This document shows positions 10,301 to 36,876 of a stretch of 48,151 nucleotides of DNA, piece after piece. The notes beneath the pieces were generated by a model. The model saw only the letters and a program-made list of their open reading frames with translations, was not told the DNA's origin and did no database searches. Every line of letters starts with the position of its first letter. Position 1 is the stretch's first letter. The DNA comes from Desulfuromonas sp. (GTDB taxonomy: Bacteria > Desulfobacterota > Desulfuromonadia > Desulfuromonadales > Geothermobacteraceae). The stretch spans positions 1-48,151 of the forward strand of contig PKUA01000032.1 of the NCBI GenBank assembly GCA_002868905.1, written 5' to 3'. The position numbers and the translations under genes were made by a program.

Positions 10301-10558
10301 GAGTTGATCAATGATATACCGGAAAAACTCCATGTGGCCGCCTTGGTATGAACTGATGGCAATCCCCTGGGCGTCTTCCTGGATCGCGGTGTTGACGATT
10401 TCGTCCACCGAGCGGTTGTGGCCGAGGTGAATGACCTCCACACCGGATGCTTGCAGCAGTCGGCGCATGATGTTGATCGATACATCGTGCCCATCATAAA
10501 GGCTGGTTGCAGTGATGAAACGAACCGGATTCCGGGGTTGGTAAACGGAAGTGTCCAT
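7319..10558 (-). CDS. icmF: Fused isobutyryl-CoA mutase (IcmF)
   Basis: Adenosylcobalamin enzyme that interconverts isobutyryl-CoA and n-butyryl-CoA, fused to its own G-protein chaperone. Order in the 1079 residues: B12-binding domain (DGHD at 22-25, later GGGGG near 98-102); MeaB-like GTPase (GTGGAGKS at 204-211, [24 protein letters not shown]); then the mutase barrel. Two substrate-binding positions mark it as IcmF rather than methylmalonyl-CoA mutase: phenylalanine in GLFPFKR (F569) where methylmalonyl mutases have tyrosine, and glutamine in KEDQGQN (Q726) where they have arginine. Known IcmF enzymes are of this length and some also interconvert isovaleryl- and pivalyl-CoA. A sigma-54 promoter lies upstream at 10615-10630. 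First gene of an operon with the nitroreductase and the decayed peptidase. Confidence 0.95.
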
Positions 10559-10614
10559 GCTGTAGGCTCCTTCATGGCATCAGGAAATAACATCGTTATA
10601 AATCCACTGAATAC

Positions 10615-10630
10615 AGCAAACCCCATGCCA
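10615..10630 (-). promoter_or_regulatory. Sigma-54 (-24/-12) promoter of icmF
   Basis: Read on the minus strand: TGGCATGGGGTTTGCT. This matches the consensus TGGCACG-N4-TTGCW, with GG and GC exactly ten bases apart. It lies 57 bases before the icmF start codon. The divergent neighbour is a sigma-54 activator, which supports the call. Confidence 0.9.
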
Positions 10631-10723
10631 TGTATCGCTTGACCGGGTTTTTCGGTCTATCCCCGGATTTTGGGGATCTTTCAAGTTTTGAATGAGTACG
10701 AAGGTGACGTCCTGTCTTGCCTG

Positions 10724-10741
10724 TGTCTACAAAGGTAGACA
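10724..10741. promoter_or_regulatory. Inverted repeat, candidate activator binding site
   Basis: TGTCTAC-AAAG-GTAGACA is a perfect 7-bp inverted repeat with a 4-base centre. It lies about 95 bases upstream of the icmF -24 element and 210 bases before the activator start codon. Related TGTYTACA half-sites occur upstream of the other two sigma-54 promoters (12833-12840 and, reversed, 23349-23356). Assignment to the neighbouring activator is inference. Confidence 0.5.
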
Positions 10742-10950
10742 GTTTGCCTCGATGTGCCTCCACGGTATTCCGAGGATTCACCTGTTGACTGATTCTTGAT
10801 GTCAGCTATGACGATCTTCGTTGCCTGGTGCCGGCTGCCGGTTGGGAGTGTCGGTAGGATTAATTGTTTAGAACGTTGTTATTTCTTTGCGGAAACTGTT
10901 GTGGTATAGTTGGGCTGTTTCGTCAGACCAAACTCGGAGGCCAGAGAGCA

Positions 10951-12696
10951 TTGAAATCAACTGCACGGCATTTACGGGCTGTTCAAAGACGAGTTCCCGA
11001 CTGGGGGATTGGTCTCGATAAAAATTTCACCATCCAGTCGATCAGCGAGCAGAGTCCACCCTCGATTAAATCCCTAAAAGGATGCACCAACCTGGAGCAG
11101 TTCCATTCTCTGCAACACCTTCAGTTGTTGATCATGAACGGGTATTGGTTCAGCAACCTTCCTGTTCCCATTGAAAATCAATGGTATGCGGTTGAAAACG
11201 CGAAGGGGGAAGTGACAGAGGATGGCGGGCAGGAGCATGTCCGTCTGCAGTTTGCCAGGTTTGGCAACAAGGAAGCTGCTTTTGTCCTGCATGACTTCGT
11301 GCAGGCCATCGATCCCTTCTCCCTCGATACGGCCGGGGGGATTCTGCTGGTGGATCGTCACGGTATCGTTCTTCTGGTCAACGCGGAGTTTGCCGGCATC
11401 CTCGGCCTGCAGGCTGCGGAAATCGTCGGACGACATGTTAACGACGTCTATCCCGACTCGACCTTGTCCAGACTTCCGAAGGTGATGGAGACCGGCAAGG
11501 CTGAAATCGGCGAGCCGCACGCCCTCAACGGGAGGAACATTGTCGCGAGTCGCTGGCCGCTGGTCAAGGACGGCAAGACCTATGGGGCCTACGGCAAGGC
11601 GGTCGTCAGGGACAAGATCGATGTCTCCCGTTATGCAGGCCAACTCTCTTCCGCCGAGGCCAAGACAGGAAGAAGGACGATTCGCGGGCATCGACCCCGG
11701 GCTCTATACACTGTCGACCAGATCGTCTGTCATGCTCAGACCATGCAGGATCTGAAGTCGAAGCTGCTGCGGGTCGCAAGCCGGCCATCGACGGTGCTGC
11801 TCACCGGCGAGAGCGGTACGGGCAAAGAACTGTTCGCACATGCGATACACGCTGCAAGCGAACGCAGCAATGGTCCTTTTGTCCGGGTCAACTGCGCGGC
11901 AATCCCGGAAAATCTTCTGGAGTCAGAACTCTTCGGCTATGTTGAGGGGGCTTTTTCAGGGGCCAGGAGAGGGGGGCAGATCGGCAAGTTTGAGCAGGCG
12001 CACGAAGGGACTCTGTTCTTGGACGAGATCAGCGAAATGCCGATCTCAATGCAGGCTAAGCTGCTGAGGGTCATGCAGGAGCGGGAGGTGGCTCCGCTGG
12101 GAAGCCAGGATATACGGTTTGTCGACGTACGTTTCGTCGTGGCGACAAACTGCGATGCCCAGACTCTCGTCAACGACAAAAAGCTGAGGGCGGACCTCTA
12201 CTACCGCGTCAACGTTGTCTCTTTGCCGATCCCGCCGCTTCGTGAACGTGTTGAAGACATGTTTTACCTGACCCGCCACTTCGTCGAACAGTTCAACCAT
12301 GAATTCAACATGAACGTTCAGGGGCTAAGTTCACGCGCCTGGACCGCGTTGAAGGCATATCCGTTCCCCGGGAATGTCCGTGAATTGCGCAGCGCCATCG
12401 AGAGTGCGTTCAACATGGTGGAAGGTCCCTTCATCAGGCTGTACGACCTCCCTTCATCCATCGCCGGCATGTTCGACCCTGAGAGCCGACTAGTCGATCT
12501 TGAGGGTTCCACGACAAGGGACACTCTGAAGTCTCTGGGGGAAAAACCACTTCAGGAAATCATGGAAGAGATCGAAAAGAACTTGATTGTCGGTGCCATG
12601 GACAAGGTTGGGGGGAATAAACTCGTTGCTGCCGGTCTGCTCGGCATCTCCCGCCCCGGGCTTTACAAAAAACTGCAGAAATACAATCTGCAATAG
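10951..12696 (+). CDS. Sigma-54-dependent transcriptional activator (PAS, AAA+, Fis-type HTH)
   Basis: Enhancer-binding protein that opens sigma-54 promoters using ATP. From a TTG start at 10951 (GGAGG ten bases upstream) it has 581 residues. Residues 1-125 are an N-terminal domain I do not recognise; about 126-236 is a PAS domain (GGILLVDRHGIVLLVNAEF); the AAA+ domain has Walker A GESGTGKE at 286-293, the sigma-54 contact loop as GAFSGA (serine for the usual threonine), Walker B TLFLDEI and the arginine-finger region; the end is a Fis-type helix-turn-helix (LLGISRPGLYKKLQKY). There is no receiver domain, so it probably senses a ligand directly. It lies divergent from icmF and just upstream of the transporter operon; -24/-12 promoters precede both. 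An earlier TTG at 10864 is possible but has no ribosome site. Confidence 0.92.
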   Translation: MKSTARHLRAVQRRVPDWGIGLDKNFTIQSISEQSPPSIKSLKGCTNLEQFHSLQHLQLLIMNGYWFSNLPVPIENQWYAVENAKGEVTEDGGQEHVRLQFARFGNKEAAFVLHDFVQAIDPFSLDTAGGILLVDRHGIVLLVNAEFAGILGLQAAEIVGRHVNDVYPDSTLSRLPKVMETGKAEIGEPHALNGRNIVASRWPLVKDGKTYGAYGKAVVRDKIDVSRYAGQLSSAEAKTGRRTIRGHRPRALYTVDQIVCHAQTMQDLKSKLLRVASRPSTVLLTGESGTGKELFAHAIHAASERSNGPFVRVNCAAIPENLLESELFGYVEGAFSGARRGGQIGKFEQAHEGTLFLDEISEMPISMQAKLLRVMQEREVAPLGSQDIRFVDVRFVVATNCDAQTLVNDKKLRADLYYRVNVVSLPIPPLRERVEDMFYLTRHFVEQFNHEFNMNVQGLSSRAWTALKAYPFPGNVRELRSAIESAFNMVEGPFIRLYDLPSSIAGMFDPESRLVDLEGSTTRDTLKSLGEKPLQEIMEEIEKNLIVGAMDKVGGNKLVAAGLLGISRPGLYKKLQKYNLQ

Positions 12697-12812
12697 TCCC
12701 CCGCTCTTTCCTCCCTTCAGGGATGGACGCCTCCCCTTGCATCGTCGGTCGGTCATCTGGATCGCGGGCTTCGCGCCCGCTCCCCGCGGAACGGCCTCCG
12801 CCCTGTCATAAC

Positions 12813-12840
12813 TATAGACACTTGTATAACAATGTTTACA
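12813..12840. promoter_or_regulatory. Candidate upstream activator site for the transporter operon
   Basis: TATAGACA (12813-12820) and TGTTTACA (12833-12840) are opposed half-sites with starts 20 bases apart, both resembling the TGTCTACA/TAGACA arms at 10724-10741. They lie about 120-150 bases upstream of the -24 element. From sequence similarity only; the half-sites are short and imperfect. Confidence 0.35.
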
Positions 12841-12960
12841 AAAAATGACGGATAAGCGAAGCTCCTCTTCCGGTTTAGCGATATTTAATGGTTGTTTATC
12901 TTCATCAAAAACAGCTGTTTATCGAGACGTGGCAAGTCTGAAAGAAAATAAAACATTGTT

Positions 12961-12976
12961 TGGTATTTGTTTTGCA
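12961..12976 (+). promoter_or_regulatory. Sigma-54 (-24/-12) promoter of the transporter operon
   Basis: TGGTATTTGTTTTGCA has GG and GC ten bases apart and TTGCA at -12. It is preceded by AACATTGTT, giving a 15-base block that matches 14 of 15 bases at the third promoter (23515-23529). It lies 80 bases before the first start codon. Confidence 0.85.
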
Positions 12977-13056
12977 CTTTAGCCGGTTCATAGTGAAATT
13001 TGCAGTTTCTGCATGGCACAAACCGAGGAACCGGTTTCCTGAAAAGGTAACTTCAA

Positions 13057-13881
13057 ATGACAGATCAGACACCTATCTTGCAAGTCGAGGACATCTTTCT
13101 CTCCTTCGGCGGTGTTCACGCGCTGCGCGAGGTCTCCTTCGCGGTTCGGCCAGGAGAGCTGTTCTCGATTATCGGTCCGAACGGAGCCGGAAAGACGTCG
13201 ATGCTGAATTGCATCTCGGGACGGTATCAGCCCAACAAGGGATCCATCGCGTTCAAGGGGCAAAAGATCATCGGCATGAAACCGAACGCCAGGTGCAACC
13301 TCGGAATCGGCAGGACATTTCAAAACCTCGCCCTCTTCAACCACATGACGGTGCTCGACAATATCATGGTCGGTCGTCACCACCTGATGAAAAATAATTT
13401 CCTGACCGGTCCTTTTTACTGGTTCTCCGGTGCACGCAAGGAAGAGTTGCGCCATCGCCGCGAAGTCGAGGACATCATCGATTTTCTCGAGATCTCCCAC
13501 ATCCGCAAGGAGGTTGCCGGCACCCTCTCCTATGGTCTTCGCAAGCGGGTCGAGTTGGCGCGCGCAGTGGCGTTGCGACCCGATCTGATCCTGCTCGATG
13601 AGCCGATGGCGGGCATGAACCTCGAAGAGAAGGAGGACATGGCCCGATATATTATCGACCTGAACGAGGAGTGGGGGATGACGGTGATCATGATCGAGCA
13701 TGACATGGGGGTGGTCATGGATATCTCCCACCGGGTCATGGTCCTCGATTTCGGTCGGAAGATCGCCGAGGGGCTGCCGGAGGATGTGATGGCGAATGAA
13801 CAGGTCAAGACCGCGTATCTCGGCGTGGGCATCGATAATGATGATGAGCCGGAAACCGAACTCAGCGCGGAGGTGGGTTGA
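13057..13881 (+). CDS. livG: Branched-chain/carboxylate ABC transporter ATPase (LivG type)
   Basis: First ATPase of a Liv-type importer, acting at the inner face of the membrane. Walker A GPNGAGKT, a signature region unusually written LSYGLRKRVELARA in place of LSGGxQ, and Walker B LILLDEPMAGMN are all present in 274 residues. The extended loop and C-terminal acidic tail are common in LivG proteins. Opens the sigma-54 operon and overlaps the acyl-CoA synthetase gene by one base. The presence of a CoA ligase between the ATPase and permease genes suggests the cargo is a carboxylic acid rather than an amino acid. Confidence 0.92.
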   Translation: MTDQTPILQVEDIFLSFGGVHALREVSFAVRPGELFSIIGPNGAGKTSMLNCISGRYQPNKGSIAFKGQKIIGMKPNARCNLGIGRTFQNLALFNHMTVLDNIMVGRHHLMKNNFLTGPFYWFSGARKEELRHRREVEDIIDFLEISHIRKEVAGTLSYGLRKRVELARAVALRPDLILLDEPMAGMNLEEKEDMARYIIDLNEEWGMTVIMIEHDMGVVMDISHRVMVLDFGRKIAEGLPEDVMANEQVKTAYLGVGIDNDDEPETELSAEVG

Positions 13882-15803
13882 TGACAGCGAACGCCGACTA
13901 CCCGGATGTCCGGGTCCACGACACTTTTCCTAAGCTCCTTGCCTACAATGCGGCAAACTGGCCGGGTCAGATTGCGCTCCGGGAAAAGGAATTCGGAATC
14001 TGGAATGCTTTCACCTGGGAAGATTACAACCGGAGCGTCAAGCTGTTCGCCCTTGGAATGCATTCCCTCGGTATCGGTTATGAAGATTCCGTTGGCATCA
14101 TTGGCGACAACCGGCCCGAATGGGTTTTCGGGGAAGTCGCCGCCCATGCCCTGCGGGCGATGATTTTCGGTATTTACCAGGACTCCCTCAACGAAGAGGT
14201 CGCCTACCTGATCAACTATGCAGGTGCCAAGATCATCATCGCCGAAGACGAAGAGCAGGTTGACAAGGTCCTTGAAATCACCGAGGAGTGCCCTTGCGTT
14301 GAACATATCATCTACTGTGATCCAAGGGGCATGCGCAAGTATGATGACCCGCGCTTGATGAGTCACACAGACCTGATGGCCAAGGGTGATGCCCTGGACA
14401 AGGAACAGCCCGACCTGTACCGGCAGCTGATCGACGCGGGGAATGGCGATGACGTTGCCATTCTCTGCCCGACCTCCGGCACCACCTCGAACCCGAAGCT
14501 GGCGATGCTGCAGGCCGGCCCGATGCTGGAACATTGCATCGCCTATCTCGAGGCCGATCCCAAATTTCCCAGCGACAATTACGTCTCGGTCCTGCCGCTG
14601 CCCTGGATCATGGAGCAGGTCTACGCGGTGGCCCAGGCTCTGATCAGCCGGATCGTCGTCAACTTCGTCGAGGAGCCAGAGACAATGATGTCCGATCTGC
14701 GGGAGATCGGCCCGACCTTCGTGCTGCTGGCGCCGCGCGTCTGGGAATCGATTGCCGCCGAAGTCAAGGCGAAGATGATGGATGCAACCCGCTTTAAGCA
14801 GGCGATGTACAATTTCGGCATGAAACTGGCCGAAAAAGCTGCTGCACAGGGGTTGGGACACCAGTCGAAACTGGCGTATTGGCTTTTGTTTCGCCCCTTG
14901 AAGGACCGGCTCGGCTTTACCTACTTGAGATCGGCAGCCACTGGCGGAGCCGCCCTCGGCCCAGACACCTTCAAGTTTTTCCTTGCCATGGGGGTACCCT
15001 TGCGGCAGCTCTACGGGCAGACCGAAATGGCAGGCGCCTACACCATCCATGAAGCGCACGATGTCGATTTTGACAGCGTGGGCATACCTTTCCGGAACGC
15101 AGATGTTCGAATCGACAACCCGGACCATAACGGTGTCGGCGAAGTGGTGGCCAAGACCACCGGCATGTTCCTTGGGTATTTCAAAAACCGGGCTGCAACC
15201 GATGAGGCACTTGAGGATGGCTGGATGCACACGGGAGATGCCGGGTATTTCAAAAAGGAGAACAACCACCTGGTGGTCATCGACCGTATCAGTGATTTGT
15301 CAGAGACCTCGACCGGCGACAAATTCTCCCCTCAGTTCATCGAGAACAAGCTTAAATTTTCACCGTTTATTGCCGAAGCGGTGATCCATGGGGATGGGCG
15401 ACCGTACCTGTCGGCGATTATCTGCATCCGCTACGAGATTGTGGCCAAATGGGCCGAACAGAGAGGACTAGCCTTCACCAACTACATCAACCTGTCCGCC
15501 CAACCCGAGATTTACCAGCTGATCCAGCAAGAGGTGGAAACCGTCAACGCGACGTTGCCCGATGCCCAGCAAATAAAAAAATTCCTTCTCCTCTACAAAC
15601 AGCTAGATGCCGATGACGGTGAGTTGACCCGGACCCGTAAGGTGCGGCGCGGCGTGATCAAAGAAAAGTATGCAGAGATTATCGATACGGTTTATTCGGA
15701 CCTTGAATTCGTACATATCGATACGGTGATAACTTTCCAGGATGGCAACAAGTCCAGGGTGAAGACCGATCTGCGCGTAGTCGACCTGGTCAGCAACAAT
15801 TAA
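13881..15803 (+). CDS. Long-chain-type (FAA1-like) acyl-CoA synthetase
   Basis: A 640-residue AMP-forming ligase of the FAA1/long-chain branch. Motifs: CPTSGTTSNPK phosphate loop, YGQTEMAGAY, the GWMHTGDAGYF segment, DRISDLSETSTGDKFSP and LTRTRKVRRGVIKEKY at the C-terminus. The ATG at 13881 follows GGAGG and shares one base with the livG stop; a TTG three bases earlier is not needed. Ligases of this branch are often embedded in Liv-type transporter operons of proteobacteria that use aromatic or branched acids, so it probably activates the imported substrate. Exact substrate unknown. Confidence 0.9.
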   Translation: MTANADYPDVRVHDTFPKLLAYNAANWPGQIALREKEFGIWNAFTWEDYNRSVKLFALGMHSLGIGYEDSVGIIGDNRPEWVFGEVAAHALRAMIFGIYQDSLNEEVAYLINYAGAKIIIAEDEEQVDKVLEITEECPCVEHIIYCDPRGMRKYDDPRLMSHTDLMAKGDALDKEQPDLYRQLIDAGNGDDVAILCPTSGTTSNPKLAMLQAGPMLEHCIAYLEADPKFPSDNYVSVLPLPWIMEQVYAVAQALISRIVVNFVEEPETMMSDLREIGPTFVLLAPRVWESIAAEVKAKMMDATRFKQAMYNFGMKLAEKAAAQGLGHQSKLAYWLLFRPLKDRLGFTYLRSAATGGAALGPDTFKFFLAMGVPLRQLYGQTEMAGAYTIHEAHDVDFDSVGIPFRNADVRIDNPDHNGVGEVVAKTTGMFLGYFKNRAATDEALEDGWMHTGDAGYFKKENNHLVVIDRISDLSETSTGDKFSPQFIENKLKFSPFIAEAVIHGDGRPYLSAIICIRYEIVAKWAEQRGLAFTNYINLSAQPEIYQLIQQEVETVNATLPDAQQIKKFLLLYKQLDADDGELTRTRKVRRGVIKEKYAEIIDTVYSDLEFVHIDTVITFQDGNKSRVKTDLRVVDLVSNN

Positions 15804-15816
15804 CGGGGATACCAGT

Positions 15817-16710
15817 ATGAACTTTGATTTGCTCATTCAATTGATCGTCAACGGCATCATCGTGGGAACTCTTTACGGCGTGGTGGCGATGTGTTTCGTG
15901 CTGATCTACAAATCGACCAAGATCGTCAACTTTGCCCAGGGCGAGTTTTTGCTGATCGGTGCCTGGACATGCTGGGCCCTGCTGGTCAAGTTCGAGCTGC
16001 CTTTCTATGTCAGCTTCCCCCTGACACTGGCATTTATGGTGGTTTTCGGGATTCTTCTCCAGGTGGTTGTGCTACGGCCGATGATCGGCGAACCGATCAT
16101 TTCGGTGATCATGGTGACCATAGGTCTGTCGATGTTCTTCCAGGCCCTGGTGGCCTGGATATTCGGCGGCTATACCAAGGCCTACCCGAAGGTGTTCGAG
16201 ACCGAATCGGTCAACATCCTCGGTTTGCAGATCGAGTCGGCCTACATTATGAGCATGGTCATCTCACTGATCATCATGATCGGCTTTTATTATTTCTTCA
16301 AGTATTCCCGTCTCGGCCTGGCGATGCGCGCAACGGCCTTCAATCAACAGATCGCCCAGAGCCTTGGCATCTCCGTCAAGCATGTTTTTGCCGCGTCCTG
16401 GGCGATATCGGCGGTTGTCTCGGCGCTTGCCGGGGTGGTAATCGGCATGGTCAATGGCGTCTCCTCGGCTCTCTCTTTCATCGGGATCAAGGTATTCCCG
16501 GTCGTGATCCTCGGCGGCCTCGACTCCATCATCGGATCGATCGCGGGCGGGTTGATCATCGGCGTCCTTGAGAACGTGGCCGAGTTTTTCGACAGCCAGT
16601 GGCTGCACATCGGCAACATGTACAACATCGCTCCCTTCTATGCTTTGGTGATTATCCTGATGATCAAACCTTACGGGCTGTTCGGAACGAAAGATATCGA
16701 GAGGATCTGA
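15817..16710 (+). CDS. livH: ABC transporter permease (LivH type)
   Basis: Inner-membrane permease, 297 residues, about eight hydrophobic segments. The start (LLIQLIVNGIIVGTLYGVVA) and the motif VNFAQGEFLLIGAW are characteristic of LivH, as is the late VVILGGLDSIIGSIAGGLIIG. It lies 13 bases after the ligase gene and 3 bases before livM. Confidence 0.92.
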   Translation: MNFDLLIQLIVNGIIVGTLYGVVAMCFVLIYKSTKIVNFAQGEFLLIGAWTCWALLVKFELPFYVSFPLTLAFMVVFGILLQVVVLRPMIGEPIISVIMVTIGLSMFFQALVAWIFGGYTKAYPKVFETESVNILGLQIESAYIMSMVISLIIMIGFYYFFKYSRLGLAMRATAFNQQIAQSLGISVKHVFAASWAISAVVSALAGVVIGMVNGVSSALSFIGIKVFPVVILGGLDSIIGSIAGGLIIGVLENVAEFFDSQWLHIGNMYNIAPFYALVIILMIKPYGLFGTKDIERI

Positions 16711-16713
16711 TCA

Positions 16714-17778
16714 ATGGCTTCTGCCCATTCACGCATGCGTTGCGGAGAATTCCGCACTACCTACCAGGCCGATATGACGATCTTTCCGACTCCCCTGGCA
16801 AGACGGACCGCGGTCGGTTCCGTTTTGCTGCTGCTTGCAGCGCCGGCCGTTCTGGATTCCTATCTGCTCAACCTGCTGATCCAGATCGGGTATTACGGGA
16901 TCGCGGCCTTGGGATTGAATATCGTGGTCGGATTCACCGGTCAGATATCGTTGGGGCACGCGGCATTTTTCGGGTTTGGTGCCTTCGCCTCGGCATGGCT
17001 GAACGGCACGACCGGAATCCCGGTTTTCTTCACCATCCCGTTGGCTGGCGCGATGACCATGGCAGTCGGTTTGATTGTCGGAATCCCGGCGGGCCGGATC
17101 AAGGGGCTTTATCTCGCCATCGCGACCCTGGCATCCCAATACATCCTGGAGGATTTCTTTGCCCGGGCCGAATGGTTCACCGGAGGGTCGGCCGGGGCGA
17201 TGGCGAATCCGTTCACGCTTTTCGGGTATGAATTCTTCACGGACCAAACTTACTTCTACGTCGTCCTGTTTTACGTGGTCGTCATGTATCTCGGCGGCGC
17301 CAACCTGATGCGGACCCGCGACGGCAGGGCTTTTGTCGCCGTTCGCGACCATTACCTCTCGGCCGAGATCATGGGTATCAACCTCACCAAGTACCGAATC
17401 CTCTCTTTTGGGATTTCGTCCTTCTATGCCGGTGTTGGCGGGGCGCTGTTCGGCCACTACCTGGGGTTCGTGTCAGCCGAAGGTTTCACCTTGCTGCTGT
17501 CGATCCAGTTTATCGGCATGGTGATTATCGGCGGCCTCGGCTCGGTCATGGGCGCGATGATGGGAACGGTCTTCATGGTGCTGCTGCCCGAGGTGATGGA
17601 ATTCGGTGTTCACCTGGTCGGCAGCAACAACACCGCTCTGACCCAGGCCCTTGCCTACATCAAGGAAATGGCCATCGGCCTCGCCATCATCCTGTTCCTG
17701 ATTTTCGAGCCGGATGGTTTGGCCCATCGCTGGCGAATGATCAAGAACTACTGGAAGCTCTACCCGTTTTCATACTGA
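16714..17778 (+). CDS. livM: ABC transporter permease (LivM type)
   Basis: Partner permease, 354 residues. Key segments are GLNIVVGFTGQISLGHAAFF and IGGLGSVMGAMMGTVF, both typical of LivM. The ATG at 16714 has a GAGAGGA site; the first 20 residues are poorly hydrophobic and a second ATG at 16774 would give a more usual N-terminus, so the start is not certain. An inverted repeat follows before the binding-protein gene. Confidence 0.9.
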   Translation: MASAHSRMRCGEFRTTYQADMTIFPTPLARRTAVGSVLLLLAAPAVLDSYLLNLLIQIGYYGIAALGLNIVVGFTGQISLGHAAFFGFGAFASAWLNGTTGIPVFFTIPLAGAMTMAVGLIVGIPAGRIKGLYLAIATLASQYILEDFFARAEWFTGGSAGAMANPFTLFGYEFFTDQTYFYVVLFYVVVMYLGGANLMRTRDGRAFVAVRDHYLSAEIMGINLTKYRILSFGISSFYAGVGGALFGHYLGFVSAEGFTLLLSIQFIGMVIIGGLGSVMGAMMGTVFMVLLPEVMEFGVHLVGSNNTALTQALAYIKEMAIGLAIILFLIFEPDGLAHRWRMIKNYWKLYPFSY

Positions 17779-17889: not shown

Positions 17890-19134
17890 ATGCGTAGATT
17901 GTTGCTCTGCGGGACGGCAGCACTGGCCATTTTCGGGATGTCAACCATGGCGATTGCCGCCGACAAGATTCCGGTCGGACATCTGGCCTGCTACACCGGG
18001 CCGACCTCGGACGTCGGTATTCCATACGGCAACGGCGTCGCCGACGCCATGAATTTCATCAATGCCAACGGTGGGGTCAATGGCAAACAGCTCGAGTATG
18101 AAACGGTCGATTATTCCTACAAGGCACCCCAGGCGATTGCGACTTACAAGAAGTGGATGTCTGGACTTGAGCCGGTTGCCATTCAGGGGTGGGGCACCGC
18201 GGACACCGAAGCCCTGGTGAAGTTTATTGCCAAAGACGAGGTGCCCTATTTCTCGGCGTCGTATTCCGGTCACCTGACCGACCCGACTGGCAAGTCGCCT
18301 AAAACCAAGGCGCCGGCGCCTTACAATTTCTTCTACGGTGCGTCTTACTCCGACACCTGTCGCGGGCTGGTGCAGTGGGCCGCTGACGACTGGAAGGCGA
18401 AGGGGGGCAAAGGGGCTCCGAAATTCATTCACATGGGCGCCAACCACCCTTACCCGAACGCCCCGAAAGAGGCGTGCGCAGAGTATGCCAAAGAGCTCGG
18501 TTTCCAAGTTCTCCAGCCGATCGTCTATGACCTGAAGCCCGGCGACGCCAAAGCGCAATGCCTGACCCTGAAGGATTCCGGGGCCGACTATGCTTACATG
18601 GGGAATACGGCCGGCTCCAACATCTCTTTGTTGAATTCCTGCCAAACGGTCGGCGCCAACCCCCAATTCATGGCCAATGTCTGGGGATGGGATGAAAACT
18701 CCATCATGGCTGCCAGGGAATCCGGCGATGGCGTGGCTGTCCCTCTCGGATCACCTTCCTGGAAGGCCGATGCGCCAGGGATGAAGACCATTCGCGCCAT
18801 CTCCAAGATGTCTGATCCGAGCGGCGGGAAGTACCGGAACCTGCATTACATGCGCGGCGCCTGCGCCGTGTTCTTTATGAAAGACGCCATGGAGATCGCC
18901 GACAAGAAGGGCGCCATCACGGGCTCGAACATCAAGGCGGCGATGGAAACGATGACCAACCACGTTCCGGCCGGACTCGAGGGCGTCTGCAAGCCTTCCA
19001 CCTGGACCGGCGAAGACCATCGTGGCACCACCGAGGTTTCGGTTTACACGACAAGTTTCAATGGAGGCGACTTCAAGTTCAATGAGCAGGCAACGGTGAC
19101 GGTTCCGCGCCGCCCGGACTGGCTCGGCTGGTAA
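17890..19134 (+). CDS. Periplasmic substrate-binding protein of the Liv-type transporter
   Basis: A 414-residue secreted receptor. Residues 1-23 are a signal peptide (basic MRRLL, hydrophobic core, cleavage after AIA). The mature part follows the type I periplasmic-binding fold of the Leu/Ile/Val-binding family: KIPVGHLACYTGPTSDVG at the start, YKAPQAIATYKKW, and DSGADYAYMGN. Several cysteines are present, which is more than usual for this family. The AGGGAG site is good. It is flanked by hairpins on both sides (17796-17843 and 19143-19172), consistent with a separately stabilised, abundant message. Confidence 0.9.
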   Translation: MRRLLLCGTAALAIFGMSTMAIAADKIPVGHLACYTGPTSDVGIPYGNGVADAMNFINANGGVNGKQLEYETVDYSYKAPQAIATYKKWMSGLEPVAIQGWGTADTEALVKFIAKDEVPYFSASYSGHLTDPTGKSPKTKAPAPYNFFYGASYSDTCRGLVQWAADDWKAKGGKGAPKFIHMGANHPYPNAPKEACAEYAKELGFQVLQPIVYDLKPGDAKAQCLTLKDSGADYAYMGNTAGSNISLLNSCQTVGANPQFMANVWGWDENSIMAARESGDGVAVPLGSPSWKADAPGMKTIRAISKMSDPSGGKYRNLHYMRGACAVFFMKDAMEIADKKGAITGSNIKAAMETMTNHVPAGLEGVCKPSTWTGEDHRGTTEVSVYTTSFNGGDFKFNEQATVTVPRRPDWLGW

Positions 19135-19266: not shown

Positions 19267-20085
<819 letters not shown>

Positions 20086-20102: not shown

Positions 20103-21341
20103 ATGGCAGACTACTTTGACACTCTGGAGACCCGGTCTCCCGTCGATCGGGAAAAGTCGCAGATGCAAACCCTGGCTCGGCAGGTTGCCCATGCGCAAAA
20201 GAATGCGCCTGCCTACAGTCGCTTGTTGGCCGATGTCGCCGCCGAGAGCGTCAACAGCCGGGAGGCACTGGCGTCCTTGCCTCTGACCCGCAAGGAAGAG
20301 CTGATCGAACAACAGAAGGCTGATCCGCCGTTCGGTGGCCTCGTCACCGCCAGGGCTCCCGAACTTAACCGGGTGTTCGTCTCGCCGGGACCGATCTATG
20401 AGCCCGGCAGCCGCCGCGAAGATTTCTGGCGTTTTGCGCGGGCCCTTTTTTCAGCCGGATTCCGTGCCGGCGATTTGCTGCATAACTGTTTCGCCTACCA
20501 CTTTACCCCTGCCGGTGCCATGGTCGAATCGGGGGCTCACGCCCTCGGCTGCACCGTCTTCGCGGCGGGTCCGGGGCAACTCGAGGGACAGGTCCAGGCG
20601 ATCGCCGACCTGAAGCCGGATGGTTATGTCGGCACTCCGTCTTTCCTCAAGATGATCCTCGACCACGGCGATGAGTCGGGCTGCGACCTGTCGAGCCTCG
20701 GAAAAGCCCTGGTCTCGGGAGAGTACCTCCCGCCGGCACTGCGTAACGCGATGCGAGAGCGCGGCATTCCGGTGTTGCAGTGCTATGCTACCGCCGATCT
20801 GGGCCTGCTCGCCTACGAGTCCGATGCGTGCGAGGGAATGATCGTCGATGAAGGAGTTATTCTAGAAATCGTTCGGCCCGGGACCGGGGATCCGTTGCCG
20901 GAAGGCGAGGTTGGCGAGGTCATTGTAACCACACTCAGCCCCGAGTACCCCCTGATCCGTTTCGCAACCGGGGACCTGTCGGCGATCCTGCCCGGCGCCA
21001 GCCCCTGCGGGAGGACCAACCGGAGAATCAAAGGGTGGATGGGGAGGGCGGACCAGACGGCCAAGGTTCGTGGTATGTTCGTGCGCCCCTCCCAGGTCGC
21101 CCAGGTTCTTCGCAGGTTTCCGGCTATCACCAAGGGGCGGATGGTCATCGATCGCGTCGACGACGCCGATCGAATGCGGCTCCACTGCGAAATCGATCCG
21201 TTGCCGGAAGGCTTCACCGAGGTGGTGACGGCAGCCATCAGGGAGGTCTGCAACCTCCGTGGCGAGGTTGTCCCGGCCCCGGTGGGGAGTCTGCCCAACG
21301 ACGGCAAGGTGATTGATGACCTGCGCCCGGTTGATGCCTGA
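20103..21341 (+). CDS. Phenylacetate-CoA ligase-like protein with degenerate ATP loop
   Basis: A 412-residue member of the PaaK branch of adenylate-forming enzymes by overall layout: an N-terminal AQKNAPAYSRLL segment, ALGCTVFAAGPGQLEGQ, TPSFLKMI, PLIRFATGDLSAILPG and the C-terminal LPNDGKVIDDLRP with the lysine expected for catalysis. The ATP-phosphate loop, normally SSGTTGKP, reads SPGPIYEP, and the YGLSE-type motif is replaced by YATADLG. It may therefore not bind ATP in the usual way. It could be a non-catalytic partner or act on a pre-formed thioester. It sits in the transporter operon next to the CaiB-like and crotonase genes. Confidence 0.75.
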   Translation: MADYFDTLETRSPVDREKSQMQTLARQVAHAQKNAPAYSRLLADVAAESVNSREALASLPLTRKEELIEQQKADPPFGGLVTARAPELNRVFVSPGPIYEPGSRREDFWRFARALFSAGFRAGDLLHNCFAYHFTPAGAMVESGAHALGCTVFAAGPGQLEGQVQAIADLKPDGYVGTPSFLKMILDHGDESGCDLSSLGKALVSGEYLPPALRNAMRERGIPVLQCYATADLGLLAYESDACEGMIVDEGVILEIVRPGTGDPLPEGEVGEVIVTTLSPEYPLIRFATGDLSAILPGASPCGRTNRRIKGWMGRADQTAKVRGMFVRPSQVAQVLRRFPAITKGRMVIDRVDDADRMRLHCEIDPLPEGFTEVVTAAIREVCNLRGEVVPAPVGSLPNDGKVIDDLRPVDA

Positions 21342-21382: not shown

Positions 21383-22531
21383 ATGATTGAGGAGTGTTTG
21401 CAAGGATACCGGGTCCTAGATCTCAGCCAGTACCTGCCGGGTCCATATGCCACCAGGATGCTTGCCGATCTCGGCGCCGACGTGGTCAAGGTCGAGCCTC
21501 CGTCGGGCGACCCGATGCGTCAATTCATCTTTCTTGACGAAGATGACATCTCCCCGCTTTACAAACAGGTGAATGCCGGAAAGACTATCGTCAGGATCGA
21601 TCTCAAGAGCGATGCTGGGCGTGGCCAGTTCCGGCGGATGCTGGCTGCGGCTGATGTGCTGCTGGAGTCTTATCGTCCCGGTGTCATGGACCGACTCGGT
21701 TTTTCTCGTGATGCCCTTCAGTCTATAAATCCGGTGTTGATCCATTGTGCGCTCTCCGGTTTCGGCCAGGAAGGGCCCTATGCTCAGCGCGCGGGGCATG
21801 ACATCACCTATATGGCCCTCAGCGGGATGTTGTCTCATACCGGTACCCCCGAACAGCCGGTGGTCCCTTTTCCCCCCGTATCGGATTATGCCGGCGGCCA
21901 ACAGGCTGCGACCATGATCATTGCCGCACTGCTGCGACGGGAAAAACTCGGACAGGGTGGGTATGTCGACACGAGCCTGTTCGAGGCGGCCTTCTCCTGG
22001 CAATCCTTCGGTCTTGCCGGCATCGGTCGGCCCGACCGGCAGCTGGAACCGGGACAAGGCGTGATCACCGGCGGCCTGGCCTGCTACCAAATCTACCAGA
22101 CCGCAGATCAGAAATTCGTGGTTCTCGGTGCCCTCGAAGAAAAATTCTGGGCGGCCTTCTGCCGTGCGGTAGGACGTGCTGACTGGGTTTCGAGGCAAGG
22201 TGAGTCGATGCCGCAGACCGAACTGATTCTTGAGGTCAGACGTCTGTTCGCAGGCAACACCCGGCGATACTGGGTGCAACGCCTCGCCGCCGCGGACTGC
22301 TGTTTTGAGCCTCTGCTGGAGCCGGAGGAGGTCGTGTGCCATGAACAGGTCTCCGGGCGTCGCCTGGTCGAGGGCCTGCACGGCGAGTGCCGGCCGGTCG
22401 ATGTGCGCCTCCCGATCAAATTCAACGGTCATTATCCGCGCGAACGAAACCCGTTTCGGGAAGAATGCGCCTCCTCGGTGGCGAATCGGTGGGATTCGGC
22501 ATCGGGAGAAGACGCTAAGGGGGAAACATGA
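21383..22531 (+). CDS. CaiB/BaiF-family protein, alpha-methylacyl-CoA racemase-like
   Basis: Class III CoA-transferase fold, 382 residues. The sequence AGHDITYMALSG (H139, D140) and VSDYAGG (D168), with the catalytic pair about 30 residues apart, match alpha-methylacyl-CoA racemases, in which a histidine and an aspartate exchange the alpha proton of 2-methylacyl-CoA. Formyl- or succinyl-CoA transferase activity is the alternative, since these share the fold and the aspartate. A racemase would suit branched 2-methyl acids imported by this operon. Its stop overlaps the crotonase start as ATGA. Confidence 0.75.
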   Translation: MIEECLQGYRVLDLSQYLPGPYATRMLADLGADVVKVEPPSGDPMRQFIFLDEDDISPLYKQVNAGKTIVRIDLKSDAGRGQFRRMLAAADVLLESYRPGVMDRLGFSRDALQSINPVLIHCALSGFGQEGPYAQRAGHDITYMALSGMLSHTGTPEQPVVPFPPVSDYAGGQQAATMIIAALLRREKLGQGGYVDTSLFEAAFSWQSFGLAGIGRPDRQLEPGQGVITGGLACYQIYQTADQKFVVLGALEEKFWAAFCRAVGRADWVSRQGESMPQTELILEVRRLFAGNTRRYWVQRLAAADCCFEPLLEPEEVVCHEQVSGRRLVEGLHGECRPVDVRLPIKFNGHYPRERNPFREECASSVANRWDSASGEDAKGET

Positions 22532-23343
22532 AACAGAGGCCTGAGCTGGTCGATTCAACTCTGACCATCGAAGATCGTCTTGCCGTCCTGACCATGGATC
22601 GTCACGATATCCGCAACGCTCTCACCGGTTCGGCGTTGGTCGACGATATCGTTGCTACGGTCGACTGGATCGAACACTGCGAGGATATATCCGTTTTGGT
22701 CCTGACCGGTTCCGGCTCCGCTTTTTCAGCGGGCGGCAACGTCAAGGAGATGCGCGACCGGCAGGGGATCTTCAGCGGCAGCGCCGATGAGATCACCAAC
22801 TCCTACAGGAACGGGATCCAAAAGATGAGCCGGGCCATGTCCCGGCTGACGGTCCCGGCGATCGCCGCGGTCAATGGGCCCGCGATCGGGGCAGGTTTCG
22901 ACCTCGCTTGCATGTGCGATATGCGAATCGCGTCCAGCACTGCAACCATCGGGGAAACCTTCGTCAACCTCGGAATTATCCCCGGAGATGGCGGCGCCTG
23001 GTTCCTGCAGCGGCTGGTCGGTTATCAACATGCTGCGGAACTCACCTTCAGCGGGCGGCTGGTCCCGGCAGAAGAGGGGCTCAGTCTCGGCTTGTTCCTC
23101 GATGTCGTCGAACCTGATCATCTCATGGAAAAGGTCCTGTCGCTCGCCCGCGAGATCGCTTCCAAACCCCCGCTCGCCGTACGTAAGGCGAAGCGGCTGC
23201 TGTCCCAGGCGAGGTCCTCCTCCCTCGATGAATTGCTTGAGGCCTCCGCCGTCTATCAGGGGGGGCTTCACCACACCAGGGATCACCTTGAGGCGATTCA
23301 TGCGCTGCTGGAAAAGCGCCTGGGCAGATACCATGGCAGCTAG
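22528..23343 (+). CDS. Enoyl-CoA hydratase/isomerase family protein
   Basis: Crotonase-fold protein of 271 residues. The oxyanion-hole segments SAFSAGGNVKEM and NGPAIGAGFDLACMCD are present; the catalytic-glutamate region reads GETFVNLGIIPGDGG. It hydrates or isomerises an enoyl-CoA in the cytoplasm. Start codon overlaps the preceding stop. Last gene of the transporter operon. This is a different subfamily from the crotonase at 29453 and the methylglutaconyl-CoA hydratase at 36877. Confidence 0.85.
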   Translation: MKQRPELVDSTLTIEDRLAVLTMDRHDIRNALTGSALVDDIVATVDWIEHCEDISVLVLTGSGSAFSAGGNVKEMRDRQGIFSGSADEITNSYRNGIQKMSRAMSRLTVPAIAAVNGPAIGAGFDLACMCDMRIASSTATIGETFVNLGIIPGDGGAWFLQRLVGYQHAAELTFSGRLVPAEEGLSLGLFLDVVEPDHLMEKVLSLAREIASKPPLAVRKAKRLLSQARSSSLDELLEASAVYQGGLHHTRDHLEAIHALLEKRLGRYHGS

Positions 23344-23539: not shown

Positions 23540-23597
23540 CATGTAATTCTTCCAAGCGAGGAATCTTCCGCGTGTCATGGATGGAACAGGGTGCACC

Positions 23598-25598
23598 ATG
23601 GAACTGACGAGAGAAATCTACTGGAACATCGGCGGTGATGCCGCCACTCTGATCCCGATGTACCTGCTGTTGCTGGTTGCCGTTGCGGTCATGGCCCGCG
23701 GGATTTGGCAGAGGATTCTAGTCTATCGCCTGGGGAAGCCGCTGGACAGGACCGACGACCTGCCGAAACGGCTGGTGGAAGGTCTCGGCCAAGTCCTCGC
23801 CCAGAAGGGGGTGATGCGTGTCCCCGGCGCCGGGACGGCCCACGGCCTGTTTTTTTTCGGTTTCTTCCTCCTGTTCTTAGGGACCTGCTTGATCGTTTTG
23901 CAGGCCGACCTGACCGATCCGCTGTTTGGCATCAAGTTTCTCAAAGGGCGTTTCTACCTGTTTTACTCGCTCATTCTCGATGTCGCCGGTGCCGTGGCGA
24001 TTCTTATGCTGTCCGGGTTGTTTGTCCGTCGCTATCTGCTCAAACCCGAAGGCCTGGAAACCCGCAAAGAGGATGCGGTCATTCACGGCCTGCTGATGGC
24101 GATCCTGATCACCGGGTTCCTCATCGAAGGCGCCCGAATGGCCGCCACAGAACTCGGAACGCCGTTGGCGAGTTGGTCCCCGGTCGGACTGATGGTCGCA
24201 AACGGACTTGCCGGGCTGGGTGAGGAGGGACAGCGTTCCCTGCATGCGTGGCTCTGGTGGTTTCATCTGCTGCTCGCTCTCGGCTTCATCGCCCTGATCC
24301 CGTTCACAAAGCTCCGTCACCTCCTGACCGCGAGCGCCAATCACCTGCTGATCGACCACGGTCCCAAGGGCGGACTCGTGACGCTCGATATGGAGGACGA
24401 CACCGCCGAAAGTTTCGGGGCCGCAAAACTGACGGATCTGACCTGGAAGGATATCTTCGACAGTGATGCCTGCACCCTCTGTAAACGGTGTCAGGACCTG
24501 TGCCCTGCTTTTGCCACCGACAAGCCGCTCTCGCCGATGAAGATGATCAACCGCCTCAATGAGGTCGCATTCTCGGCACCGGACTCAGGCCTGGTCGATG
24601 CGGTCGGCAAGGATGAGCTCTGGAGTTGCACCACCTGCCGTGCCTGCCAGGAGATTTGCCCGGCGGCCATCGAGCATGTCCCGAAGTTCGTCGAGATGCG
24701 CCGGAATCTCGTCCTGATGGAAGGGGAGTTCCCCGGCGACGAAGTGATGACCGCCGTGGACAACACCGAGGTCAACGGCAACCCGCTCGGGATGACATTT
24801 GCCGGCCGCGGAGATTGGGCTGAAGGGCTTGGGGTCAAGCCCCTCGACGAGGACCCGGATGTCGACCTGCTCTTTTTCGTCGGTTGTTACGCGTCCTTCG
24901 ATCGTCGCAATATCATGATCGCCAGAAGTTTTGTAAGGCTCTGCCAGGCCGCCGGACTCAAGGTCGGCATCCTCGGAAAAGCAGAGAAATGTTGCGGGGA
25001 GCCGGTGCGGAAACTAGGCAACGAGTATCTCTACCAGACCCTCGCCCTTGAGAACATCGAGCTGATCAAGGGGTACGGGGTCCGACAGATCGTCACAACC
25101 TGTCCCCACTGCTTTCAGACCTTATCTAAAGATTACATGGACCTTGGCCTCGAGCTGCCTGTCGAACACTATACGGTGTTTCTCGATCAACTTGTCAGCA
25201 AGGGGCGGCTCAAGCTTGGCACGCCGCAGAGCTTTGATTGCACTTACCATGACAGTTGCTATCTCGGTCGTTATAACGACATCTACGATGCCCCGCGGAG
25301 GCTGGTCGCAGCTGCCGGCGGGAAAATTCGCGAAATGACGCGACGCGGGGACAGGAGTTTTTGCTGCGGGGCAGGGGGAGGCCGGATCCTGGCGGAGGAA
25401 ACGCTGGGTACGCGGATCAGCGAGGCCCGTATCACAATGGCAACAGAGACCGGTGCTCCGGTCCTGGTTTCAAATTGCCCTTTTTGCCTGACGATGTTCG
25501 AGGATGGCATCAAGGGGGCCGACTGCGAGTCCGAACTCAAGACTCTGGATATCGCCGAGCTTTTGGCAGATCGTCTCCCGAACCAGGGGAGCCGGTAG
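23598..25598 (+). CDS. Membrane Fe-S oxidoreductase, ETF:(mena)quinone oxidoreductase type
   Basis: A 666-residue membrane protein that passes electrons from reduced ETF to the quinone pool. The N-terminal third has about five to six hydrophobic segments like the cytochrome-b-type gamma subunit of nitrate reductase. It is followed by two [4Fe-4S] motifs (CTLCKRCQDLCP and CTTCRACQEICP) and two cysteine-rich CCG domains of the heterodisulfide reductase family (FFVGC...EKCCGEP...CPHC; DSCYLGR...CCGAGGG...CPFC). In known anaerobes this protein is encoded beside etfBA and links acyl-CoA oxidation to menaquinone. The ATG at 23598 has AGGGTG upstream; an ATG at 23577 would add seven residues without a clear ribosome site. 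First gene of a sigma-54 operon. Confidence 0.88.
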   Translation: MELTREIYWNIGGDAATLIPMYLLLLVAVAVMARGIWQRILVYRLGKPLDRTDDLPKRLVEGLGQVLAQKGVMRVPGAGTAHGLFFFGFFLLFLGTCLIVLQADLTDPLFGIKFLKGRFYLFYSLILDVAGAVAILMLSGLFVRRYLLKPEGLETRKEDAVIHGLLMAILITGFLIEGARMAATELGTPLASWSPVGLMVANGLAGLGEEGQRSLHAWLWWFHLLLALGFIALIPFTKLRHLLTASANHLLIDHGPKGGLVTLDMEDDTAESFGAAKLTDLTWKDIFDSDACTLCKRCQDLCPAFATDKPLSPMKMINRLNEVAFSAPDSGLVDAVGKDELWSCTTCRACQEICPAAIEHVPKFVEMRRNLVLMEGEFPGDEVMTAVDNTEVNGNPLGMTFAGRGDWAEGLGVKPLDEDPDVDLLFFVGCYASFDRRNIMIARSFVRLCQAAGLKVGILGKAEKCCGEPVRKLGNEYLYQTLALENIELIKGYGVRQIVTTCPHCFQTLSKDYMDLGLELPVEHYTVFLDQLVSKGRLKLGTPQSFDCTYHDSCYLGRYNDIYDAPRRLVAAAGGKIREMTRRGDRSFCCGAGGGRILAEETLGTRISEARITMATETGAPVLVSNCPFCLTMFEDGIKGADCESELKTLDIAELLADRLPNQGSR

Positions 25599-25632
25599 GG
25601 ATATAGCGAATTTTATTCGAGGAGGAATGACG

Positions 25633-26406
25633 ATGAAAATTCTCGTCTGCATCAAGCAGGTTCCGGATATGGAATCGAGATTCAAGCTCAATGCCGAGGG
25701 GACCTGGTACAACGATCAGGATCTGGCCTGGCGCATGAACGAGTATGATGAGTACGCTGTTGAACAGGCGGTCCAGCTGCGCGAGCAACTCGGTGACGGC
25801 GAGATCGTGGTGGTCTCGGTCGGCCCGGACCGGGTCAAGGAAGCGATGAAAAAGGCCCTCGCCATGGGAGCCGACCGCGGCGTGCACATCAAGGATGACG
25901 CCAGTCATGAAAAAGACCCTTTCCAGATTGCCGCAGCGATCGCCGCCTACGCGGCTGACGAGAAATTCGATGTGACGTTCACCGGCATGCAGTCCCAGGA
26001 TCGGGGCTCTGCGCAGGTCGGTGTGTTGCTGGCCGCCCATCTCGGGATGCAGGCGGTCACGACGATCATCGAATTCTCTCACGAAGGCGGCATGACAACC
26101 GTCCACCGTGAATTGGAAGGGGGCCTGAAGGCTGTGGTGCGGGTCCCGCTGCCGGCCCTGTTCAGCTGCCAGCTCGGTCTGAATACGCCGCGATACCCGA
26201 CGTTGCCGAACATCATGAAGGCCAAGAAAAAGGAACTTTTGACCCTGCAAATGGCCGACCTTCTCAAGGCGTCAGCCCTCACCACGACCGACGAGACCCG
26301 CTACCCGGAAAAGAGGGGGGGTGGGCTGGTACTCGAAGGGGATGTGGCAGACCAGGTCAGTCAGCTGATGACCATTCTTAAAGAAAAAACCGCGGTGTTG
26401 AAATAG
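25633..26406 (+). CDS. etfB: Electron transfer flavoprotein, beta subunit
   Basis: A 257-residue ETF beta subunit. It opens MKILVCIKQVPD and contains GMQSQDRGSAQVG and PRYPTLPNIMKAKKK, all typical. It receives electrons from acyl-CoA dehydrogenases. Of two close in-frame ATGs (25627 and 25633) the second leaves a normal seven-base gap to GGAGG. It precedes etfA by a few bases and follows its quinone oxidoreductase. Confidence 0.93.
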   Translation: MKILVCIKQVPDMESRFKLNAEGTWYNDQDLAWRMNEYDEYAVEQAVQLREQLGDGEIVVVSVGPDRVKEAMKKALAMGADRGVHIKDDASHEKDPFQIAAAIAAYAADEKFDVTFTGMQSQDRGSAQVGVLLAAHLGMQAVTTIIEFSHEGGMTTVHRELEGGLKAVVRVPLPALFSCQLGLNTPRYPTLPNIMKAKKKELLTLQMADLLKASALTTTDETRYPEKRGGGLVLEGDVADQVSQLMTILKEKTAVLK

Positions 26407-26415
26407 GAGGTCATG

Positions 26416-27330
26416 ATGAAAGCCATTCTTGTTGCCGAATCGAGACAGGGAACATTGCTTCCCGGGAGCTATGAAACACTTGCGTTCGCCGAGAAAATCG
26501 TTGCCGAACCGGTCATGTTCCTGGTCGGCAGCCAGGCCTCCCTGCCGGCGTTCCCGGGGCGGCTCTACCTGGCCGACGCCGACGTGGCTGGCGAGTACAA
26601 CCCCGAGGAGCATCTGCGGCTGTTGCAGGAGGTCGTGGCCAAGGAGGCCCCTCAAATAATTGTTTTTCTGCATTCGTCCTATGGTTGGGATCTGGCGCCG
26701 AGACTCGCTTTCGCCCTCGGTGCCGGCCAGGTATCGGAAGTGGTCGATTGCCAGGAGGGTGCCATGGTTGTGCCGGCCTGCAATTCCAAGCTGCGGCGGG
26801 TGGTCAGGTCGTCCGGCGACGTAACCGTCGTGACGTTACAGGCCGGGGCTTTCAGCCTTGCGAATGAGCCAGGAGGCTCCCCGCAGGTGGAACTGCTGGA
26901 ATCGCGCCACGACGGTCAGGTCGAGTTCCTGGCCTACGAAGCGGGTGAGCTGGGGGGTGTTGACCTCAGCAAGGCCGAGATCGTCGTCAGCGCAGGGCGG
27001 GGTATCGGCAAACCGGAAAACCTGGCGATGGTCGAGGCGCTCGCCAAGGCGCTTGGCGGTGAATACGGAGCGAGCCGCCCGGTCGTCGATGCCGGTTGGG
27101 CGGAGCACACCCGGCAGGTGGGGAGTACCGGGCAGACGGTTTCTCCGAAGCTTTATGTGGCGTGTGGCATCTCCGGAGCGATCCAGCACCTCGCCGGTAT
27201 GAAGAAGTCCGAATTCGTTGTTGCGATCAACACCGATCGTGACGCGCCGATCGGTGAGGTTGCCGATGTCCTGGTGGTTGCCGACCTGAAACAGTTTCTG
27301 CCGGCCCTGACGGCACGTCTATCGGCATGA
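26416..27330 (+). CDS. etfA: Electron transfer flavoprotein, alpha subunit
   Basis: The FAD-binding ETF alpha subunit, about 304 residues. The C-terminal FAD domain is clear: SAGRGIGKPENLAMVEALA, RPVVDAGWAEHTRQVG, SPKLYVACGISGAIQHLAGM and VVAINTDRDAPI. An ATG at 26413 lies two bases from AGGAGG; the next at 26416 gives better spacing, so the difference is one residue. The two subunits with the upstream membrane protein form an electron route for the four dehydrogenation steps encoded downstream. Confidence 0.93.
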   Translation: MKAILVAESRQGTLLPGSYETLAFAEKIVAEPVMFLVGSQASLPAFPGRLYLADADVAGEYNPEEHLRLLQEVVAKEAPQIIVFLHSSYGWDLAPRLAFALGAGQVSEVVDCQEGAMVVPACNSKLRRVVRSSGDVTVVTLQAGAFSLANEPGGSPQVELLESRHDGQVEFLAYEAGELGGVDLSKAEIVVSAGRGIGKPENLAMVEALAKALGGEYGASRPVVDAGWAEHTRQVGSTGQTVSPKLYVACGISGAIQHLAGMKKSEFVVAINTDRDAPIGEVADVLVVADLKQFLPALTARLSA

Positions 27331-35249: not shown

Positions 35250-35265
35250 AAGGATAGAGGCCCCA

Positions 35266-36873: not shown

Positions 36874-36876
36874 GCT

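Follow-up and report, generated by a model that had tools for sequence, protein, structure and literature searches.

A conserved PaaK-fold protein family with a rebuilt P-loop, encoded beside Liv-type importer and acyl-CoA ligase genes

The window analyzed here, that is, the whole 48,151-nucleotide stretch of Desulfuromonas sp. DNA, carries a PaaK-like gene directly behind livF. Its product belongs to a conserved PaaK-fold (ANL) subfamily in which the P-loop and the A10 loop have been rebuilt, and we put at about even the chance that it serves as a non-adenylating, ATP-independent accessory. The gene and the motif positions on which this reading depends are as follows.

20103..21341, + strand: PaaK-like (PGP-loop) protein of 412 aa, an intact ORF with an ATG start and a PaaK/HCL fold
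20382..20405, + strand: codons of SPGPIYEP (residues 94-101), the counterpart of the A3 P-loop
20784..20804, + strand: codons of YATADLG (residues 228-234), the A5 motif
20958..20981, + strand: codons of RFATGDLS (residues 286-293), the A7 motif with Asp291
21042..21080, + strand: codons of residues 314-326 (GRADQTAKVRGMF), the A8 motif with Arg315
21291..21326, + strand: codons of LPNDGKVIDDLR (residues 397-408), the remodelled A10 region

Pfam AMP-binding matches the protein at 49.1 bits, and six NCBIfam models match it at E 1e-5 or better, none of which reaches its own cut-off. The curated PaaK models likewise score it below theirs (TIGR02155, 139.7 bits with a cut-off of 646.3; NF041878, 152.6 bits with a cut-off of 700). 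An AlphaFold2 model, built from a 55-row alignment of the window sequence and 54 of the 80 scan loci described below, has a mean pLDDT of 91.1 and a pTM of 0.87. Its N-domain has the PaaK/ANL fold, superposing on 2-hydroxyisobutyryl-CoA ligase (HCL) 6he0 (Z 36.0, 2.1 A, 318 residues) and on PaaK2 2y4o (Z 35.4, 2.1 A, 310 residues). With both domains included, the rmsd to PaaK/HCL chains is 10-12 A; the C-domain sits differently in the model, and its orientation was not used for any conclusion. By its sequence, the gene appears to be a variant of the PaaK/ANL kind and not a PaaK. The same genome encodes four additional, distant relatives at E up to 1e-5, three with SSGTTG and the fourth (L034) with TSGTTG.

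A preliminary description of this DNA had proposed that the P-loop SSGTTGKP reads SPGPIYEP, and residues 94-101 bear this out. It had also suggested asking whether homologues encoded next to livF share the altered loop. In the first homologue alignment, S94, P95, and G96 are invariant (93/93 rows). In a wider alignment of 176 rows (155 family and 21 PaaK-type rows, after 15 short rows were dropped from 191), the family loop reads S in 140 rows, P in 155, G in 155, P in 128 (T in 22), I in 120, Y in 129 (F in 18), E in 106 (D in 34), and P in 142. PaaK-type rows carry S or T, S, G, T, T, and G at the first six of these positions, with GTTG in 21/21. The family thus departs from the (S/T)SGTTGxP P-loop, with P95 in 155/155 rows versus S in 21/21 PaaK-type rows, and the T-T-G of PaaK is mostly P-I-Y. 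Most printed family rows are also ~7 residues shorter than PaaK after the P-loop. Five further plasmid members, the five whose loops were read, also have SPGP. Relatives with HPGPQYET or APGPI loops were seen at L143 (8315-10975, two in tandem), L144, L145, and L149, and the APGPI-loop group lies nearest PaaK on the midpoint-drawn tree.

The other motifs have fared differently. YATADLG does stand at residues 228-234, as the preliminary description had read in place of the YGLSE-type motif, but the change is milder than it had claimed, since position 232 is Asp in 129, Glu in 21, and another residue in 5 of 155 family rows. The ANL ribose-contact residues, Asp291 in A7 and Arg315 in A8, are present in 155/155. 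The C-terminal lysine region, said to be kept, is not kept in the family as a whole: position 402 is K in 122 of 155 rows, R in 13, and another residue or a gap in 20 (K or R in 135), and there is no Lys anywhere in residues 393-405 in 24/155 family rows, versus 1/21 PaaK-type rows. Neither Lys nor Arg occurs in this stretch in 11/155. At least 13 changes between K and non-K at position 402 are needed over the 108 family rows of the tree. The PaaK A10 segment, RSEGKAxRVIDxR, has a shorter counterpart here, and an A10 catalytic lysine in EGKAxRV is not a feature of the family. Whether the window's Lys402 falls on the PaaK lysine depends on the alignment: the MAFFT whole-family alignment opens a 3-residue gap over the PaaK EGK, while hhalign (nearest clade) and HMMER against BT_0428 pair the GK dipeptides of the protein and the reference. 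HMMER against HCL leaves out a short stretch at A10, and we take this stretch to carry the HCL lysine. Pfam AMP-binding_C_2 covers its full profile (1-96) in three canonical PaaKs and positions 1-84 of 96 in the PaaK-like protein, at 18.1 bits against a cut-off of 25. Two plasmid-borne members (L224 7703-8899 and L225 7896-9092) combine the loop SPGPIFEP with an A10 loop without Lys.

Within the window's family and order, an orthologue was found in 11 of 58 genomes, the window's own included, at 58-100% identity, with the next match down at 37%. Across the phylum, matches at E 1e-60 or better occur in 95 of 297 genomes. In the species genome collection, a pattern scan gave at least 597 matches; 590 of the 597 listed encode relatives, 80 loci were kept from those listed, and 61 of the 80 are labelled Betaproteobacteria. 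Three betaproteobacterial-type loci (L052, L077, and L084) come from MAG records titled Bordetella parapertussis, Singulisphaera, and Klebsiella pneumoniae, titles that are probably wrong. In a 119-row tree made with the loop and A10 columns removed (57 of the 176 rows were left out for size), the 11 PaaK-type rows form one side of a branch (SH-aLRT 95), which fits a single event of P-loop replacement in the family. The gene is under purifying selection: dN/dS is 0.07-0.21 over 12 locus pairs, the values being rough for the several pairs with dS >1. The livF values are 0.02-0.14, and the PaaK-like gene is higher than livF in 12/12 pairs.

The genes around the PaaK-like gene are arranged as follows.

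10864..12696, + strand: sigma-54 activator with a PAS domain (Sigma54_activat, PAS), upstream of the operon and putatively linked to it
13057..13881, + strand: livG, ABC ATPase (ABC_tran, BCA_ABC_TP_C)
13878..15803, + strand: ACSL, an FAA1-like acyl-CoA ligase (AMP-binding) whose own motifs are intact in the motif table
15817..17778, + strand: livH and livM, two permease genes (ORFs with homologues in the same order; named from sequence and annotated counterparts)
17890..19134, + strand: livK, solute-binding protein (Peripla_BP_6)
19267..20085, + strand: livF, ABC ATPase (ABC_tran), 17 nt upstream of the PaaK-like gene
21383..23343, + strand: class III CoA-transferase (CoA_transf_3), then an enoyl-CoA hydratase (ECH_1)

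The earlier view of an intact gene inside an operon is upheld: the ORF is whole, livF lies upstream, and the setting is usually an ACSL-Liv operon. The gene has livF upstream on its own strand in 88 of 91 close loci (L001-L011 and L035-L114), at a gap of -4 to 577 nt (median, 92); in the three exceptions, the DNA ends 273 and 75 nt upstream (L079 and L100) or livF is cut by the contig end (L063). ACSL is present in the locus of 73 of the 81 rows with at least 7 kb upstream. Where Desulfobacterota rows extend 700 nt or more upstream (62 rows), 23 have livF no farther than 200 nt away and another 17 have it within 3 kb; in the other 22 it was not found. Many of these loci reach only 1.5 kb upstream. 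No fusion of LivF with the PaaK-like protein occurs among the 88 loci. The sigma-54 promoter pattern gave 3 matches in the window versus 2.73 expected by chance, none of them upstream of livG, and a scan for sigma-70 promoters and terminators gave nothing usable. At L048 (~8000-17248), a second LivG-ACSL-LivH-LivM-LivF set lies beside the first operon, with no PaaK-like match for the second set within the locus.

Plasmid-borne copies vary this theme. On plasmids of Methylibium and Aminobacter, livF precedes the PaaK-like gene, and on a Xanthobacter plasmid the gene lies before ACSL, at the opposite end of the Liv genes and not after livF. The Xanthobacter operon (L223 5367-17829) encodes a B12 mutase, a LAO/AO-type ATPase, a PaaD-like protein, the PaaK-like protein, ACSL, and the Liv proteins, and it lies near 2-hydroxypropyl-CoM lyase. 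On Sulfitobacter and Roseibium plasmids, the gene is part of a beta-oxidation cluster and has no Liv genes as neighbors; the cluster at L224 and L225 is of the thiolase/MaoC/acyl-CoA-dehydrogenase kind. Other members outside liv operons have scattered neighbors (L160, L170, L166, and L178); the neighbors of L144 include a pair of solute-binding proteins as well as a mutase, and those of L145 an enoyl-CoA hydratase together with an MFS protein. Among the 40 plasmid records listed of 66, the names of annotated matches are AMP-binding protein, putative phenylacetate-CoA ligase, phenylacetate--CoA ligase family protein, coenzyme F390 synthetase, and hypothetical protein; names of the ligase type probably misdescribe the family. 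Of the 16 genomes in the order that encode this LivF, 12 encode a PaaK-like protein too (a distant form in two of them), and one of the four without it (G003) is incomplete. Since related operons without the gene exist (L217, also without CaiB; L218, with CaiB present; and L219), the PaaK-like gene would be an accessory of the operon.

We compared the operon proteins across 49 loci of our choosing, 47 of which have the PaaK-like gene and entered the comparison of importer types. Type 1 (LivG-ACSL-LivHMKF) comprises 7 loci, all from Desulfuromonadia or Alphaproteobacteria; type 2 (ACSL-LivGHMKF) comprises 30 loci, mostly from Betaproteobacteria. Between the two types, mean identity is 32% for LivH, 37% for LivM, 38% for ACSL, and 56% for LivF; the PaaK-like proteins are 58% alike between types versus 60-63% within them. 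When type 1 is set against 10 other Desulfobacterota-side loci, LivH is 49% and ACSL 48% identical, and the PaaK-like protein only 39%. For ACSL and LivH, trees built from 37 loci contain one branch that cuts off all of type 1 and one that cuts off all of type 2; the PaaK-like tree does not, and there the third group splits off instead. The groupings with SH-aLRT support thus differ between the trees. The simplest reading of these patterns is that the accessory gene has moved between importer types. Tree topology was set aside as proof of such transfer: the alternative groupings survive AU tests (p 0.17 for the PaaK-like tree and 0.38 for the ACSL tree).

The genes downstream in the window include the CoA-transferase, enoyl-CoA hydratases, an HdrD-like protein, Etf-like genes (named from sequence), a thiolase, a 3-hydroxyacyl-CoA dehydrogenase, two acyl-CoA dehydrogenases, a methylcrotonyl-CoA-carboxylase-like pair, and an HMG-CoA-lyase-like gene. 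This gene content points to beta-oxidation and branched-chain acyl-CoA breakdown. B12 acyl-CoA mutases also occur near family members on the Xanthobacter plasmid and at L144. The HdrD-like iron-sulphur protein and, after it, the Etf-like genes at 23577-27330 (+ strand) are a likely electron outlet for the acyl-CoA dehydrogenases. At 35143-40601 (+ strand), a carboxyltransferase, an enoyl-CoA hydratase, a biotin carboxylase with an MCC-alpha BT domain, and the HMG-CoA-lyase-like gene look like leucine breakdown. On the opposite strand (7319-10558, -), a 1079-aa protein joins B12-binding, MeaB, and methylmalonyl-CoA-mutase domains in one chain, which we take to resemble the fused isobutyryl-CoA mutase IcmF.

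The acyl-CoA ligase of the operon has its P-loop, A5, and A10 motifs all present, and in 94 aligned ACSL rows these motifs are kept save for single exceptions (L200 and L180); A7 reads TSD in part of the Betaproteobacteria. Since the P-loop, A5, and A10 motifs are complete, the ACSL sequence gives no sign of needing a partner to finish its reaction. The A8 motif of the window's ACSL (13878-15803) reads DRISDL, with Ser at the A8 hinge in the window's clade, where most relatives have Lys. A split ligase, as a defective ACSL would have shown it, was looked for and is not borne out: no defect was found, and the A8-hinge Ser also occurs in L217 and L218, both without the PaaK-like gene.

In aryl-CoA ligases, the phosphates of ATP are held by the P-loop, and during adenylation the A10 lysine works on the alpha phosphate; A7 and A8 contact the ribose, and the pantetheine tunnel adjoins A8 (PMC8388817). 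The two elements that make the acyl-adenylate, the P-loop and the A10 lysine loop, have been rebuilt in the PaaK-like family, and because A7 and A8 are kept while these are not, we infer that adenylation has been lost or much changed and that AMP-type ligands may still be bound. The protein would then bind AMP, acyl-AMP, or acyl-CoA, would not carry out canonical adenylation, and would act as an ATP-independent accessory of ACSL and the Liv-type importer. The kinds of role that the preliminary description named (non-adenylating partner, thioester-handling enzyme, or sensor) are reasonable ones for it, because the loop change is real, old, conserved, and mostly found beside livF; the conserved C-terminal lysine that had formed part of that idea does not stand. 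Should adenylation indeed be absent, the protein may bind the product acyl-CoA or AMP and thereby tune uptake or ligation, or it may act in some other way on these ligands, each of which we regard as a possibility well short of even; a PtmA2-like role, passing preformed acyl-adenylate to CoA, is suggested by analogy, and we give it only slightly less weight. More broadly, and tentatively, PGP-loop proteins may be a widespread natural class of non-adenylating ANL proteins, a mobile accessory module between Liv-type importers and an acyl-CoA ligase that, without ATP, reads or processes the acyl-adenylate or acyl-CoA derived from the imported acid. Counted against the preferred reading are the T at position 97 in 22/155 rows, the K or R at 402 in 135/155, the GK pairing, the complete ACSL, and a dN/dS above that of livF in 12/12 pairs.

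Several of these points would suit an ATP-dependent CoA ligase with a diverged P-loop, in which the phosphates would be gripped by S94, G96, P101, and the backbone, with Lys402 (or Arg) serving as the A10 lysine. By motif order, S94, G96, and P101 match T161, G163, and P168 of 4-chlorobenzoate:CoA ligase, the loop positions at which mutation is most damaging among those tabulated: activity is given as 2000-fold lower for T161, 1000-fold lower for G163, and absent for P168 (PMC8388817). Because these places are kept (S94 in 140, G96 in 155, and P101 in 142 of 155 rows), weak or altered ATP use by the PaaK-like protein is possible, and the K or R at 402, the retention of A7 and A8, and the GK dipeptides that hhalign and HMMER can pair all speak for such a ligase. 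Set against it, the equivalents of T164, T165, and G166 have become P, I, and Y, the A10 Lys is missing from 24/155 rows with neither Lys nor Arg in 11, and the Pfam C-terminal match stops before the A10 part; on balance, we consider a diverged ligase unlikely.

A regulatory or structural subunit of the LivFG ATPases, not acting on acyl ligands, would account for a gene that adjoins livF in 88/91 loci, and yet its nucleotide-site residues are invariant, and PaaK-like proteins from the two importer types are still 58% alike where the LivH proteins are 32% alike. The Xanthobacter gene, moreover, precedes ACSL instead of following livF, and beta-oxidation clusters harbor some members, so that such a subunit is improbable in our judgment. 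That the loss of the PaaK motifs reflects a decaying gene or a sequencing error is scarcely credible, given that the new loop is itself conserved, dN/dS is 0.07-0.21, and 590 of the 597 matches listed encode relatives; loop conservation and dN/dS led us to rule it out. The reading that we prefer is still that of a non-adenylating accessory. In the open-licence literature, we found no homologue with an SPGP-type loop and measured activity and no account of the loop or of the livF-linked family. If non-adenylation holds, lost or separated adenylation would be far more widespread than the PtmA1/PtmA2 pair, to our knowledge the only published case, and the family would bear on how bacteria couple the uptake of carboxylic acids to CoA activation.

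Among known systems, PaaK (2y27, 2y4n, 2y4o; TIGR02155) shares with the PaaK-like family the fold, the A7 Asp, and the A8 Arg, at an hhalign probability of 100, and differs from it in that the family has a replaced P-loop, a shorter A10 segment, and a non-conserved Lys. HCL (6hdw-6he2) provides the best structural match to the N-domain (6he0), tied with PaaK, but its loop is TSGTTGRP and it is 27% identical to the PaaK-like protein. EhpF from phenazine antibiotic biosynthesis (3hgu, 3hgv) has a PaaK-like N-domain (Z 20.2) at 17-18% identity; a search of the open-licence literature on EhpF turned up nothing related. A precedent for the proposed mechanism is the PtmA1/PtmA2 pair of platensimycin biosynthesis, which is reported to divide the ANL half-reactions, so that one ANL protein does only the second (PMC6594144).
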